Positions 1,696-6,815 of a DNA stretch of 24,689 nucleotides are shown here, piece by piece. The notes beneath the pieces are model-generated. The model did not search any database. It was not told where the DNA came from and saw only the letters and a list, made by a program, of their open reading frames with translations. The first letter of the stretch is position 1. The number at the start of each line of letters is the position of its first letter. Source of the DNA: a virus. The position numbers were made by a program, and so were the translations under genes. The stretch is taken from positions 4,813 to 29,501 of IMG/VR virus record IMGVR_UViG_3300030102_005083; one strand, given 5' to 3'.

Positions 1696-2585
1696 TGTTA
1701 TTCAAAAGTTACCCAAAAATTAGCCGAGTGATTGAGGACAACATTGTTGAAGTTCAAGATATTCTTCGCAAGGTGGTTTTCACAGACGAGTCCATTGAAA
1801 AAGACAAACAGTTTAGCACTTACAAAAAGAGAGATGGTGACACACTAGAATCTATCGCAAGAAAATTTTATGGTCGAGATGAATTGTCTTGGGTCATTAT
1901 GTTGTTCAATAAAGTTATTGATCCATTTTACGGGGTGAGTTTGTCAACCTCATCACACGACAAATACATGCAGAAGAAGTACCAAGGGCAAACTCTGTTT
2001 TTGTCCGCTGTGGGTTCATCATTTCCGCTATCGTTGAACAGTGCTGGCATCACGACTGGAACACTTGCACTTACAAAAACAATAAACTCTGATGGATCAT
2101 TAAGTTACTTAAATGAACCAAGAGGCACTATCAAATCATTCAATAACAATTTTGGCTCTGTTCAGTTATACGAACAAACTGGAAAGTTCAAAGTAAACGA
2201 CACCCTTTCAATTTTGGAAGGTCGAGTTGAGGTTCTGTCTGCAACAGTTCAAAAAGCAGTTGATAGCATAGATGCACCAAGTTACTTTGCTGAAAGCCTT
2301 GAGGGTGCTAGTTCCGATCCACTCAACCCGCTGGCATCAGTCCCAAATGCTCACGGTGTCCAAACATCAATTGGAACTACAAGTGCTGACTTTGCGACCG
2401 CAGTAACATATGGCACTCCAACTCTTCTATTCGATTACGTTTACAATAATGTAGGAACGTACGTTGTGACTAACAGGACGAAAGAGTTTAAAGACAACTA
2501 CGATAAATCCGTTCTAAACCTAATCGACCCAAAATTCGTACCAGCGTTGGAACTTGAAATGAGGAAGTTGTTCCGAAATGCGTAA
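1695..2585 (+). CDS. 53: Baseplate wedge protein, gp53-like
   Basis: This 296-aa protein has the N-terminal signature of the T4 gp53 family. Residues about 41-80 form a LysM-like segment with 'DGDTLESIARKFYGR' followed by 'LSWVIMLFNKVIDPF', which matches the family pattern of a short helix, Tyr-Gly, Trp and a conserved Asp-Pro. In T4, gp53 (196 aa) joins the six wedges around the hub during baseplate assembly. This copy is about 100 aa longer, the extra being a Ser/Thr/Asn-rich region of likely beta structure after residue 90. The start is fixed by the TAATG overlap with the upstream gene and an AAGG-type SD in the preceding gene's last codons. It overlaps the hub gene by 8 bases, consistent with coupled expression. 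Confidence 0.85.
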   Translation: MLFKSYPKISRVIEDNIVEVQDILRKVVFTDESIEKDKQFSTYKKRDGDTLESIARKFYGRDELSWVIMLFNKVIDPFYGVSLSTSSHDKYMQKKYQGQTLFLSAVGSSFPLSLNSAGITTGTLALTKTINSDGSLSYLNEPRGTIKSFNNNFGSVQLYEQTGKFKVNDTLSILEGRVEVLSATVQKAVDSIDAPSYFAESLEGASSDPLNPLASVPNAHGVQTSIGTTSADFATAVTYGTPTLLFDYVYNNVGTYVVTNRTKEFKDNYDKSVLNLIDPKFVPALELEMRKLFRNA

Positions 2586-4020
2586 TAACTATGAACGCCA
2601 AGGTGACTTTGAATTCGAGGCACTGTACGCTGTAAGAGGTGACTCTTCTTTTAACCTTTTACAGTTTGCGAACAACTTATCAATTTATGAGGGTGTTGAG
2701 CAAAAGTTCATGACTGGTTCTTTGACCTTTACAGACGCGAACAATGTTTTGCGTTTTTATGATTTCAAAAATGACGTATACATCGTTGGTGCATTTAGAA
2801 CACCACTCCCTGATGTTACTAAAAACAACATCGGAGGATTCTTTTCAAGGGATGACACTGACACAAGATCTGTGTTTGTTCTCAAAGTAACTGATGTGTC
2901 ACGGACAAAGATGCCAACACAGCAGGGTGATTTTGTTGAACTTACTCTTGTTTCCCCATCTATGTTTTTTGACTCTAACAAAATGATTAGTCGAAGTGTC
3001 GGTGGTGTTGGATTTGATCCAGTGTTGCAACTGATGAATGAGTTTTACTTTGATAGGTTAAATCCTAATCGTGTTGGGCTGCCGAACTTTCTGAGTGATT
3101 CGGTTTTTCAGACTGGTGGTATTCGCACACTTGACCTTGTAGATACTAGATATGCGTTTTTAAGAATTACAAAAGGATCTGAAACTCAAACACCACTGCG
3201 ATACTGCTTTCCATTCATGCGACCGTCACAAATGATTGGCTCTGCCATGAATGACTTGATATCAGAGTCAAATGACTTTGGATACTTCATGTGGGAAACT
3301 TTGACAGGATTCAAAACCGCAACAATTCAGGGTGTGCAAGAGGGAACTCCAGTCATCGGCTACAGTAAAAAATACACTGAGAATAGGTTTGATGAATCAA
3401 TTGATGAAAGGCTGGCATCATTGTTTACCATTGAGACTATGGATTTTCCAACAACGGGCAATCGCATGATGCAAACAATGGGTGGTGCATTTGCCTCAAA
3501 GATGTATGAGTTTGACATCACGACTAAGCGATTAGATCGAAGAGTTTTCGACTACTCAACACAAAATCCATATGTAGATGCAATCAATAAGTTTCCAATT
3601 CAACTTCCAGAAGTCTCACAAAACGAGTTTTCTGGATTTGGAAACATCGTGTCTTTTGATGTGGCGAGTTTTAACTTTAACACACCCAGCGGTGACCCAG
3701 ATGAAAACCTTTACATTGACGATGAAGGTCATTTGAATATGATCAGTCAAAAAACTCTCATGTACGATACGCAGTTAGAGATCACTGTTCCGGGCAATCA
3801 CATCATAGAGGCAGGCATGACTGTTAACATTGACGTTCCGCCAAACACCATTTCTGAGGATTCAGTCGATGAAGATATCTCGGGGTCTTACTTAGTCAAT
3901 GCACTTAGTCATAACTTTGAGTTTCAAGGGAATACACATAAGATGTCACTTGGGCTAACAAGAAACTTTAGGAATACACCAAAGCGTGCGGTGCAATATA
4001 ACAATATGGAGAGAGCATGA
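2578..4020 (+). CDS. 27: Baseplate central hub protein, gp27-like
   Basis: This 480-aa protein lies directly before the gp5-like spike gene, and its N-terminus ('FANNLSIYEGVEQKFMTGSL' near residues 30-50) looks like the first beta domain of gp27/phage-Mu-gp44-type hub proteins. These form a trimeric ring that adapts the six-fold tail tube to the three-fold spike. The C-terminal part ('LEITVPGNHIIEAGMTVNID', then 'YLVNALSHNFEFQGNTHKMS') matches the last beta-barrel typical of such hubs. T4 gp27 is 391 aa, so this copy is somewhat longer. A GAGGAAG SD at 2561-2567 supports the start at 2578, which overlaps the gp53 stop by 8 bases. The assignment rests on sequence character plus position and has not been aligned against a database. 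Confidence 0.75.
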   Translation: MRNNYERQGDFEFEALYAVRGDSSFNLLQFANNLSIYEGVEQKFMTGSLTFTDANNVLRFYDFKNDVYIVGAFRTPLPDVTKNNIGGFFSRDDTDTRSVFVLKVTDVSRTKMPTQQGDFVELTLVSPSMFFDSNKMISRSVGGVGFDPVLQLMNEFYFDRLNPNRVGLPNFLSDSVFQTGGIRTLDLVDTRYAFLRITKGSETQTPLRYCFPFMRPSQMIGSAMNDLISESNDFGYFMWETLTGFKTATIQGVQEGTPVIGYSKKYTENRFDESIDERLASLFTIETMDFPTTGNRMMQTMGGAFASKMYEFDITTKRLDRRVFDYSTQNPYVDAINKFPIQLPEVSQNEFSGFGNIVSFDVASFNFNTPSGDPDENLYIDDEGHLNMISQKTLMYDTQLEITVPGNHIIEAGMTVNIDVPPNTISEDSVDEDISGSYLVNALSHNFEFQGNTHKMSLGLTRNFRNTPKRAVQYNNMERA

Positions 4021-4943
4021 ATTTGAATATGGTATGGTTTCAGGGTGTAGTTGAGGATCGAAATGATCCTTTGCAACTTGGTCGCGTTCGTGTTCGATGT
4101 GTTGGGTATCACACCGAAAACAAAGAGGATCTACCTACCGAGGACTTGCCATGGGCGCATCCCGTACAGCCTATGACATCGGCGGCAATGAGTGGAATCG
4201 GCACTACACCACTCGGACCCGTTGAGGGGACTTGGGTTGTTGGATTTTTTAGAGATGGTGCAGATGCCCAGCATCCAGTCATTTTTGGAACTCTCGGTGG
4301 CTTACAAACAGGAACCTCACTCGCACCGACTGATGGATTCCAAGACCCTAACAAAAACTATCCTTTGACAGAGGGACCAAACACAGACACCGACACGAAC
4401 TCACTTGCTCGCGGAGAGGGTGGCGTGCCAGTCGAAACAAGGCTAAACAATCTTGATGTGATGCTCTCAGCCGACGCAGACATTCCTCTCGCTTTCAATC
4501 CTGTACGCGAACCACCACCAAGATATGCCGCACAATATCCGTTCAACCATGTCAAGTTCACCGAGAGTGGTCACGTTGAAGAGTTTGATGACACTCCGGG
4601 TGCAGAGAGAATGCACCGCTACCATCGTTCAGGAACCTTTGAAGAAATCGGTCCTGATGGTGAAAGAACTTTGAAGGTTGTAAACAAAAACTATACAGTT
4701 GTCATGGGTGAAAATGACCTGCATGTTGTGGGTCCATGTAATGTTCAACTTGACGGAGCAACAAGTGTTATTCTATCGCAAGGTGCGAAGATCACTTCAC
4801 TCAGAGATTTAGAAGTGACTGTCGTCGGCGACTTCGATTTGAATGTTCTTGGTAAAGCAACAATCGGAGGGCTTCGCACAGACATTCGTGGATTCCCAAT
4901 CAATCTCAACGGTGGGTTTGATCCAGATGACATCCCAGCGTAA
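4017..4943 (+). CDS. 5: Baseplate central spike protein, gp5-like, lacking lysozyme domain
   Basis: Residues 1 to about 105 are an OB-fold of the gp5/VgrG type: 'WFQGVVEDRNDPLQLGRVRV' at the start, then 'EGTWVVGFFRDGADAQHPVI' ending in Gly-Thr-Leu-Gly-Gly. From about residue 180 there is a spike module ('HVKFTESGHVEEFDDTPGAE', 'HRSGTFEEIGPDGERTLKVV') leading into a beta-rich region of short repeating strands, as in the gp5 beta-helix. T4 gp5 is 575 aa with a lysozyme domain between these parts; here (308 aa) only a linker of about 60 residues stands there, and no lysozyme motif is seen. In the virion it should form the membrane-piercing needle on the gp27 trimer. It overlaps the hub stop (ATGA), with a GGAGAG SD before the start. 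Confidence 0.88.
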   Translation: MNLNMVWFQGVVEDRNDPLQLGRVRVRCVGYHTENKEDLPTEDLPWAHPVQPMTSAAMSGIGTTPLGPVEGTWVVGFFRDGADAQHPVIFGTLGGLQTGTSLAPTDGFQDPNKNYPLTEGPNTDTDTNSLARGEGGVPVETRLNNLDVMLSADADIPLAFNPVREPPPRYAAQYPFNHVKFTESGHVEEFDDTPGAERMHRYHRSGTFEEIGPDGERTLKVVNKNYTVVMGENDLHVVGPCNVQLDGATSVILSQGAKITSLRDLEVTVVGDFDLNVLGKATIGGLRTDIRGFPINLNGGFDPDDIPA

Positions 4944-4954
4944 GGAGTTTTGCA

Positions 4955-5602
4955 ATGCCAGAGTATATTGAAGTAAAAGGTATAAGTGAGGCAGGTAAAA
5001 GATTTATCCAATATATCCTTGCCTCTGGGTTTGAGTTTTTTGTTTTCGTTGAGGAACCAAAGTATGCTGAGTATCTAAAGTCACATCCGTCAGGCGTGAC
5101 TGCAAGATATCACTTTATTGAAATGATCACCGAGGGTGGTCATGGTATCAATCGTCCCATGCTCAATGGTGAGATTATCAAAGCACACCCAGAACTTACA
5201 TTATCTCGAATCACTGAACTCAGAAACCTTTACGATAACAACAAAAACAGAAGACCGTTTAAGGTTCCTTTGGAGACAACAATCGCACCCATCCCTCCTC
5301 AGATTGTTGCAGGTGCGAACACCTTTTTGAGTGACTTTGAATTGTATTTTAAGACAACAAGACCACTCAACGATTTCAGAACAAAAAGTGCTGTAGGTAT
5401 TACAAAAGAGATTGTAAATTCATCACTCAAAAATTTCTCTAGGTCAACCGCTAAATTTGTCGGTCCAAACCTACCCACTGTGGCTAACGTTGGCGATGCT
5501 TGGCTAAATACACAGTCGGGTAAATTATTTTTTTACATGTCCGATGGCACGACTGGTGGAACAAGTGGAACGGGCATGACAAGTGCATGGGTGGAGATCT
5601 AA
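4955..5602 (+). CDS. Unrecognised virion protein with fibre-like C-terminal module
   Basis: This 215-aa protein is not recognised as a whole. It starts after a good AAGGAG SD at 4942-4947. Residues 1-110 look mixed alpha/beta and contain 'GGHGINRPMLNGEIIKAHPE'. Residues 110-165 include a hydrophobic helix and a basic stretch. The last 45 residues resemble a short module seen in many phage fibre and adhesin proteins: 'GPNLPTVANVGDAWLNT' followed by a Gly/Thr loop and a terminal Trp-Val-Glu-Ile. Its place between the spike gene and the PAAR gene suggests a part linked to the spike tip or tail end, but this is inference. No lysozyme or peptidase motif is seen. Its stop overlaps the next start by one base if PAAR begins at 5602. 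Confidence 0.75.
   Translation: MPEYIEVKGISEAGKRFIQYILASGFEFFVFVEEPKYAEYLKSHPSGVTARYHFIEMITEGGHGINRPMLNGEIIKAHPELTLSRITELRNLYDNNKNRRPFKVPLETTIAPIPPQIVAGANTFLSDFELYFKTTRPLNDFRTKSAVGITKEIVNSSLKNFSRSTAKFVGPNLPTVANVGDAWLNTQSGKLFFYMSDGTTGGTSGTGMTSAWVEI
5591..5596 (+). promoter_or_regulatory. Ribosome binding site that sets the PAAR gene start
   Basis: GTGGAG lies 5 bases before the ATG at 5602. The earlier in-frame ATG at 5587 has no such sequence before it, so the later start, which gives the expected PAAR N-terminus and a TAATG overlap, is preferred. Confidence 0.6.
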
Positions 5603-5862
5603 TGAGTATTGCAACGTTTGGAGATAGAGTCGCGTGTGGAGGAACAGTGATTGGAGGAAGTTACACTGTTCGTGCTAACGGTAAGCCTGTTGCATTTGTT
5701 GGCTGTGCTGTGACACCGTGTCCAGATAAACCACCATCCTTTGTTGCGACTGGCAACTACACGGTGCTTGTGAACGGTTCACCCTGTGCAAGACTTGGTA
5801 GCGTCAACTCACATGGATCTCCTATTGTCACTACTGGAGCCTACACGGTGTTTGTGCCATGA
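5602..5862 (+). CDS. 5.4: PAAR-domain spike tip protein (gp5.4-like)
   Basis: This 86-aa protein is a PAAR protein, which forms the sharp cone that caps the gp5/VgrG spike and usually binds a metal ion. It shows three repeats of a Tyr-Thr-Val strand at residues about 21, 53 and 81 ('GGSYTVRANGKPVAFVG', 'TGNYTVLVNGSPCARLG', 'TGAYTVFV'), the hallmark of the fold. Candidate metal ligands are Cys12, Cys35, Cys40, Cys62 and His71; which ones bind is not known from sequence alone. T4 gp5.4 is 97 aa, a similar size. An in-frame ATG at 5587 would add five residues but lacks an SD. It overlaps the next gene through ATGA. Confidence 0.9.
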   Translation: MSIATFGDRVACGGTVIGGSYTVRANGKPVAFVGCAVTPCPDKPPSFVATGNYTVLVNGSPCARLGSVNSHGSPIVTTGAYTVFVP

Positions 5863-6815
5863 GTGCCTATCCAAATTCAAATCTAAATTTACCAAGCATC
5901 AATCAAGACTTCATTGACCTGTCTGGATGTAATGTTATAGATTTGTTACCGATTGATGATAAGCAAAAGGAACTGTTAAACAAAGCAATCAGTGGCGAAC
6001 TATTTTTCAATCCTGTTCAGGCTGCAATCACTGAGGGGTTGAACACAATCGGTGGCTTTGTTGAAGAGGTTGAGACTGCCGTGGCTGGACAGGCGGCAAA
6101 TGAAATTCAACGAATGGTAGATGCAGCGGGCAACCGGCTCGCCGGTGTTAACTTCATTATCATTGGAACTGACCCAATCACAGGACTGCCATTGACCAGA
6201 CCCGAGAATGTTTTCGAATACATTTCTCGAAAGTCAAATGAACTCAACGCCGGTATTCAGTATTTTCAACAGCAAACAGAAATCTTGTCTGGGGTTTCAC
6301 TGCTTCCAAAAGATCAACGGGAAAGTAATTTTGATTACAACACTGACGGAGGGATCGATGAGTTTCCCGGTCTTGTTGGCATAACAAATATTGCACAAGG
6401 TTTTCAACAAACTGTAAACTCTCTCGATCCCGATAATCTTGAGGACAGGTTCTCAGGATTCTTTGACTCTGTGACTGGAAAGGGAAGTGAAATCATGGAC
6501 GCGGTGAATGCGGCTGTAAAGGGTGATATCTCTCAGGCACTATCAATTTTCCGAAATGCGGATGGAAACATTTCAATCCCGCAATTTGATCCAGATAACC
6601 CAAACGGAGGGTTTGATCTCTCTCAAATTACTGAAGCATACCAAAGTGTCAAACAAGCGGTAAACACACTGGAGTCACTCGTAAACAATGAAAGAGCCTT
6701 GACCGCACTCGCAACAGATTATCTTACAAAAACGGTATTCGGGTTTAGCGTGCTTGCCCTTCTAGCCGATCCGTGTTTTGGAAAGAAAATAGCCGAGAAG
6801 ATCTTTAATCTTTGA
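5859..6815 (+). CDS. Unrecognised structural protein between PAAR and gp25
   Basis: This 318-aa protein is not recognised. It appears mostly helical: amphipathic stretches at residues about 50-90 ('FNPVQAAITEGLNTIGGFVE') and 255-300, with an acidic Gly/Asp-rich middle ('NTDGGIDEFPGLVGI'). The last 35 residues are hydrophobic and include 'FGFSVLALLADPCFGKKIAE'; this is too short and charged at its end to be a confident membrane segment. There is no signal peptide. Its start (ATG 5859) overlaps the PAAR stop by four bases, and it is followed by gp25, so it is very probably expressed with the baseplate proteins and may belong to the baseplate. The function is unknown. Confidence 0.75.
   Translation: MSAYPNSNLNLPSINQDFIDLSGCNVIDLLPIDDKQKELLNKAISGELFFNPVQAAITEGLNTIGGFVEEVETAVAGQAANEIQRMVDAAGNRLAGVNFIIIGTDPITGLPLTRPENVFEYISRKSNELNAGIQYFQQQTEILSGVSLLPKDQRESNFDYNTDGGIDEFPGLVGITNIAQGFQQTVNSLDPDNLEDRFSGFFDSVTGKGSEIMDAVNAAVKGDISQALSIFRNADGNISIPQFDPDNPNGGFDLSQITEAYQSVKQAVNTLESLVNNERALTALATDYLTKTVFGFSVLALLADPCFGKKIAEKIFNL

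Follow-up and report, generated by a model that had tools for sequence, protein, structure and literature searches.

Analysis of the window (the whole stretch of 24,689 nucleotides, a tail-baseplate gene cluster from a 29.5-kb record of an uncultured virus of the T4-like type) indicated that the ORF at 4955-5602, here termed X215, is a genuine gene under purifying selection, conserved in uncultured T4-like viruses. Its product is best explained, with a probability that we put near 0.45, as a trimeric, fibre-like accessory of the hub or spike in a group of these viruses. The original prediction had set this unknown ORF between the spike and spike-tip genes, and it was found exactly there. Genes for a gp48-like cap, a gp53-like, a probably gp27-like and a gp5-like protein are located 5' of X215, and those for PAAR, a conserved 318-aa protein, gp25-like, gp6-like and wedge proteins are located 3'; the order spike, X215, tip is kept in divergent relatives. 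The features are as follows.

2578-4020, plus strand: tail/hub protein, probably gp27-like (phrog_350).
4017-4943, plus strand: gp5-like spike, an OB domain followed by beta-helix-like repeats.
4942-4947, plus strand: putative ribosome-binding site of X215, AAGGAG, 7 nt 5' of the ATG.
4955-5602, plus strand: X215, 215 aa, ATG at 4955 and TAA at 5600-5602.
4955-5368, plus strand: N-domain, residues 1-138, with the motif ARYHFIEMITEGGH...RRPFK and no classified relative found.
5372-5446, plus strand: linker, residues 140-164, pLDDT below 50, mean column identity 0.34.
5447-5599, plus strand: C-module, residues 165-215, GDxWxNT...WVE(I/V), also present in phage fibres and probably a trimerization module.
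5602-5862, plus strand: PAAR tip protein (PF05488, 7.8e-16), its ATG overlapping the X215 stop (TAATG).
5859-6815, plus strand: ORF5859, conserved, with a weak DUF7217 match under the family cut-off.

Comparison of X215 with its relative in contig L002 gave a dN/dS of about 0.13 at a dS of about 1 (simple Nei-Gojobori counts), and purifying selection acted on both halves, the N-domain and the C-module. Since dN/dS is low and relatives with 32-89% identity are present on 35 IMG/VR contigs, X215 is no chance ORF. The IMG/VR profile scans, in which the profile was enlarged stepwise, returned 17, 35, 36 and 51 loci; the 51 loci of the widest scan include seven that match by the C-module alone and one fragment (L207). 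The gp5 gene was located directly 5' of X215 in 35/35 contigs and PAAR directly 3' in all 31 that were long enough, the remaining four ending within X215. The spacer between gp5 and X215 measured 7-11 nt in 24 of 26 cases, and of 24 intact contexts 21 had the X215 stop overlapping an ATG. Because of the TAATG overlap, 5602 is preferred as the PAAR start, and the mechanical ORF start at 5587 is probably wrong. Occurrences of the T4 late-promoter consensus, TATAAATA, were not above those in shuffled sequences. An extra N-terminal region was observed in some relatives (roughly 90 aa in L095 and L206), and a variant at L201:2428-3624 has an N-terminal addition of roughly 190 aa that matched nothing in Pfam. 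Further downstream, ORF5859 carries a 'DPCF' motif, and its relative in L204 has 755 aa.

The gp5 protein of the window (4017-4943) matched Gp5_OB (2.2e-29) and phrog_430 'baseplate hub subunit and tail lysozyme' (4.8e-91), and no lysozyme domain was detected in it with Pfam. It was less than 60% identical to each of 2,293 matching cultured-phage records, the best among the matches listed having 48% identity at 90% query coverage and 51% at 76%. X215 itself matched no family in PHROGs, Pfam or NCBIfam at E <= 1 and no sequence by tblastn at E <= 1 among 50,697 cultured phage records, and PDB sequence searches with X215, the family profile and two C-module profiles returned chance-level rows only. 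The Pfam PAAR profile was not matched by X215, the PAAR protein being the next ORF, and no copies of the N-domain or C-module were found elsewhere in the window. Searches of open-access literature, several of them aimed at other points, listed no description of the gene.

The N-terminal domain had been predicted to be novel, and it is new to the libraries searched: no convincing match was obtained in Pfam, PHROGs, NCBIfam, the PDB or the 50,697 records of cultured phages, nor in GTDB genomes, where a search with two peptide patterns only gave 49 pattern matches and no relative of X215. When three divergent relatives were used for tblastn against the cultured phages, C-module matches were obtained, mostly from Synechococcus phages, together with weak scattered ones, and an N-domain relative was absent among the matches listed (for two of these searches, the best 30 of 93 records and the best 15 of 23). 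A Pfam row for Cloacin_immun (0.04, in one of 12 X215 members) and NCBIfam rows for relatives (0.01 and 0.09) were taken as chance. In the libraries searched, neither the N-domain family nor its location between gp5 and PAAR had a precedent.

The AlphaFold2 monomer of full X215 (21 aligned sequences) had a pLDDT of 77.9, with a confident N-domain and a disordered linker; for the N-domain alone (22 sequences) the pLDDT was 92.5 and the pTM 0.83. Alignment of 21 sequences (A7), including the divergent L095, revealed that E34, Y37, A50, R51, H53, M57, T59, H63, P68, H78, R90, R100 and F102 of the N-domain are invariant. A fold search of the PDB with the N-domain gave mainly weak winged-helix-like rows, which cover residues 31-104 and reach at best Z 5.0 (2.6 A, 59 residues of the DUF433 protein 2ga1), and led to no family assignment; these Z values may reflect just a common arrangement. 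Foldseek of the models against the PDB and BFVD returned nothing at E <= 0.001, and among the 50 BFVD matches listed 20 carried names of collagen-like proteins or of tail fibres, spikes or collars, the matched part of the model not being given. A catalytic or metal site at H53/E56/H63/H78 was considered and rejected, because E56 differs in L095.

A spike-delivered effector, in which the winged-helix-like N-domain would enter with the PAAR tip and act in the host, could draw on the position of X215 beside PAAR, on these weak matches (Z up to 5.0) and on the invariance of H53, H63, H78, R90 and R100. We regard it as very improbable: no convincing toxin or enzyme family was matched, the best rows (0.01 to 0.09) are mutually unrelated, E56, G61 and G62 are altered in L095, and the winged-helix-like values may be due to a common arrangement alone. 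The tip-bound effector of the original prediction gained no positive evidence.

The fibre-type C-terminal module, also proposed earlier, was recovered by homology in the relatives of X215. The GDAWLNT...AWVEI stretch corresponds to residues 180-215, and although X215 of the window had no PHROG row, the C-module of its relatives matched phrog_9729 'tail fiber protein' (best 3.5e-5), and six of ten module sequences matched phrog_3304 (best 9.8e-5). There was also a match to the PHROG 'L-shaped tail fiber protein assembly'. By tblastn the C-module of the relatives matched cyanophage fibres (best 6e-3), and by eye the fibre of Synechococcus phage S-B68 has three tandem copies near its end. L213 and L214 also contain the module, in ORFs judged fibre-like by eye and with E-values that refer to a small set. 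W183 and W212 are present in 21/21 sequences, as is N or D at position 185, and P174 in 18/21; the tripeptide W212-V213-E214 is invariant (21/21). As a separate observation, the 101-aa ORF at L208:2839-3144 joins a CBM5/12 module (PF02839, 3.3e-6) to a C-module of the X215 type, and the ORFs adjoining it look replication-related by eye.

The C-module was modelled as three-stranded with moderate confidence (AlphaFold2 monomer). Structural superposition of the X215 model (VIA-align 2) gave matches for the C-module that were all below Z 4, a level that unrelated chains also reached (for example 5ngm_Av, Z 3.1, rmsd 6.8 A). In this range residues 165-215 superposed on residues 583-622 of CBA120 TSP3 (Z 3.8, 1.7 A, 38 aa), and the trimerization domain of collagen XV was matched by the same residues (Z 3.0, 2.0 A, 38 aa). 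Residues 162-215 superposed on residues 36-86 of JBD30 baseplate chain 8rk3_E, which we take to be the receptor-binding protein gp54 (Z 3.2, 2.7 A, 46 aa), and residues 163-215, more weakly, on the N-terminal end of Bordetella phage Mtd. The resemblance to TSP3 is a structural likeness only, because the C-module sequence profiles did not recover TSP3 above shuffled controls; no trimerization domain was among the rows of the PDB profile searches with the C-module. According to the respective papers, domain D4 of TSP3 forms a beta-prism II trimer with a lining of Asn, Trp and Pro (PMC6517402), the thigh domain of JBD30 gp54 (residues 1-118) joins the trimeric receptor-binding protein to the hub (PMC11445458), and a Klebsiella phage lyase starts with a collagen XVIII-type trimerization fold (PMC8822698). 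On the models, the C-module is probably a trimerizing module and only possibly a binding module. Because a cyanophage fibre has tandem copies of it (by eye), and because the modelled fold bears a weak likeness to trimerization domains, the C-module more likely serves structure than receptor binding, and the 'adhesin-like' end of the original prediction found no support in that wording.

To determine what occupies the slot between gp5 and PAAR, the best 80 of 579 relatives from a gp5-profile scan were inspected, and the 78 loci with an intact gp5 were classed. X215 was present in 27, one of which (L118) is truncated at the contig end and was classed by eye. In 16 loci gp5 was followed directly by PAAR, in eight by a collagen-like fibre and in 11 by an ORF of 619-809 aa that carries a DPC motif; the remaining 16 were other or undecided. 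No X215 was seen in the examined flanks of the loci with an empty slot. In seven records with a collagen-like fibre that were searched, PAAR was located further 3' in four and was lacking in three, which may be fragments. In L167 the order was gp5, a 1030-aa collagen-like fibre (PF01391, 1.6e-11), a 380-aa protein, PAAR, a counterpart of ORF5859 and a gp25-like gene. Collagen triple helices are trimers, and the presence of a collagen-like fibre in the slot of a related clade was counted as support for the trimer reading.

Several other arrangements were observed. The region L167:967-5201, between gp5 and PAAR, comprises the fibre gene and the 380-aa protein, which has no family match. An additional 209-aa ORF lies 5' of PAAR in L168, and in another clade (L131, L140 and others) the ORF 5' of PAAR is the one with the DPC motif (619-809 aa). 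Three Vibrio phages have phrog_1168 proteins in the slot (L021:7152-7652, L080:5239-5721 and L079:4867-5364); the phrog_1168 profile gave no row for X215 or the relatives scanned. In Pelagibacter phage Mosig gp5 is distant from PAAR, and in Melnitz a second gp5-type gene lies 5' of PAAR.

The length of the gp5 tail, counted after the GTFEEI motif, was 93-103 residues with X215 (26 of 27 loci measured), 94 with a collagen-like fibre (8/8), 102-118 with the DPC ORF (10 of 11 measured) and, where the slot is empty, 102-134 with a median of 124 (16/16). Usually gp5 is 20-30 residues shorter with X215 or a fibre than with an empty slot, but the tails of the empty-slot loci L136 and L139, at 102 residues, are inside the X215 range. 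In a tree of 48 distinct gp5 cores, from which the class 'other' was omitted, three changes suffice for the four slot states. The link with gp5 length rests on few events because slot content follows gp5 clades, and a causal reading of it was rejected on this ground.

The end of gp5 was screened for the pattern [IVL]x[LVI][NS] within the last 18 residues. It was found in 27/27 X215 loci (shuffle mean 5.7), 16/16 empty-slot loci (3.0), 8/8 fibre loci (1.5) and 11/11 DPC-ORF loci (1.0), and in seven of the 16 'other' loci (2.1), being absent in nine; the gp5 clade of the window itself has about 10 additional residues beyond it. In T4 the last strand of gp5 binds the PAAR protein gp5.4 (PMC4576200), and the tip complex consists of a gp5 trimer and one gp5.4 (PMC7600766). 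Since the end pattern is kept, PAAR likely still caps gp5 and X215 likely lies beside the axis. A position of X215 wedged between the two was rejected for the same reason, by argument rather than proof. The adaptor between gp5 and PAAR foreseen by the original prediction became less likely, because the end strand of gp5 is kept and relatives with an empty slot exist. With this strand kept, X215 probably decorates the spike or hub.

The main rival, which we hold to be unlikely, is that X215 is an assembly factor outside the virion, which would chaperone folding of the gp5 beta-helix or load PAAR and then be released, in the manner of T6SS Tvp proteins. It agrees with the gene position, which is that of Tvp genes (PMC13373197), with the overlap of the X215 stop and PAAR start, and with the match of the C-module to the PHROG 'L-shaped tail fiber protein assembly'. 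However, DUF2169, DUF4123 and DUF1795 gave no Pfam row at E <= 1 with 12 X215 members, and no adaptor name appeared in NCBIfam with 21 members, the presence of each model in the libraries being assumed. Tvp proteins accompany long VgrG proteins (PMC13373197) whereas X215 accompanies a shorter gp5, and relatives in which gp5 is followed directly by PAAR manage without X215.

A further reading, to which we give a low likelihood, takes X215 for an ordinary receptor-binding fibre or adhesin of the tail periphery that just happens to be encoded in the spike operon. The C-module is of the fibre type and the slot of L167 holds a collagen-like fibre with a 380-aa protein, as this reading would expect. 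Receptor-binding ends usually vary fast, however, and since both halves of X215 are conserved, with W212-V213-E214 invariant in 21/21, the peripheral fibre is disfavoured. The X215 gene also tracks the gp5 phylogeny, and 215 aa is very short for a peripheral fibre.

As a trimeric accessory, X215 would be a small fibre-like virion protein at the central hub or spike. Through the C-module it would form trimers, in keeping with the threefold symmetry of the gp5 spike, and the family-specific N-domain would attach it to the hub or spike, and perhaps to gp5 itself, at a site alongside the gp5-PAAR axis. X215 is presumably made from one operon with gp5 and PAAR and could co-assemble with them; it may serve to strengthen or extend the end of the spike, or to touch the cell envelope late, as the spike is driven in. 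In a wider proposal, which we consider quite unlikely, the gp5-PAAR slot of T4-like viruses would be a cargo port, where interchangeable trimeric modules (X215, collagen-like fibres and perhaps the phrog_1168 proteins) ride the membrane-piercing spike, so that the needle itself, in addition to peripheral fibres, makes receptor or envelope contact, the X215 N-domain being a new domain family there.

Envelope piercing by the tail is the task of the gp5-PAAR spike, and a conserved third gene, exchanged in relatives for fibres, other ORFs or nothing, suggests lineage-specific spike attachments. X215 offers a small, expressible test case for spike decoration, a question common to type VI secretion, and supplies a motif by which a gene family that has no annotation in the searched libraries can be recognized.

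A small spike or hub accessory with a fibre module is of a kind known in outline. T6SS Tvp proteins are likewise encoded between spike (vgrG) and tip (paar), but X215 matches none of their families, and Tvp proteins belong with long VgrG, not with short spikes. The phrog_1168 proteins of Vibrio phages (160-166 aa) share the gp5-PAAR slot with X215 and are a different sequence family. The domain of JBD30 8rk3_E whose residues 36-86 superpose on residues 162-215 of the X215 model is N-terminal there and C-terminal in X215. Domain D4 of CBA120 TSP3 and the collagen XV trimerization domain are, like the C-module, small and three-stranded with a weakly similar fold, and the Asn, Trp and Pro of the D4 core recall the conserved Trp, Asn/Asp and Pro of X215; the C-module differs from both in having no sequence-profile match to them and a trimer that is predicted only. 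Cyanophage fibres (S-B68; phrog_9729) share the GDxWxNT...W module with X215, which differs from them in its single C-terminal copy, its other N-domain, its length of only 215 aa and its location in the spike operon.
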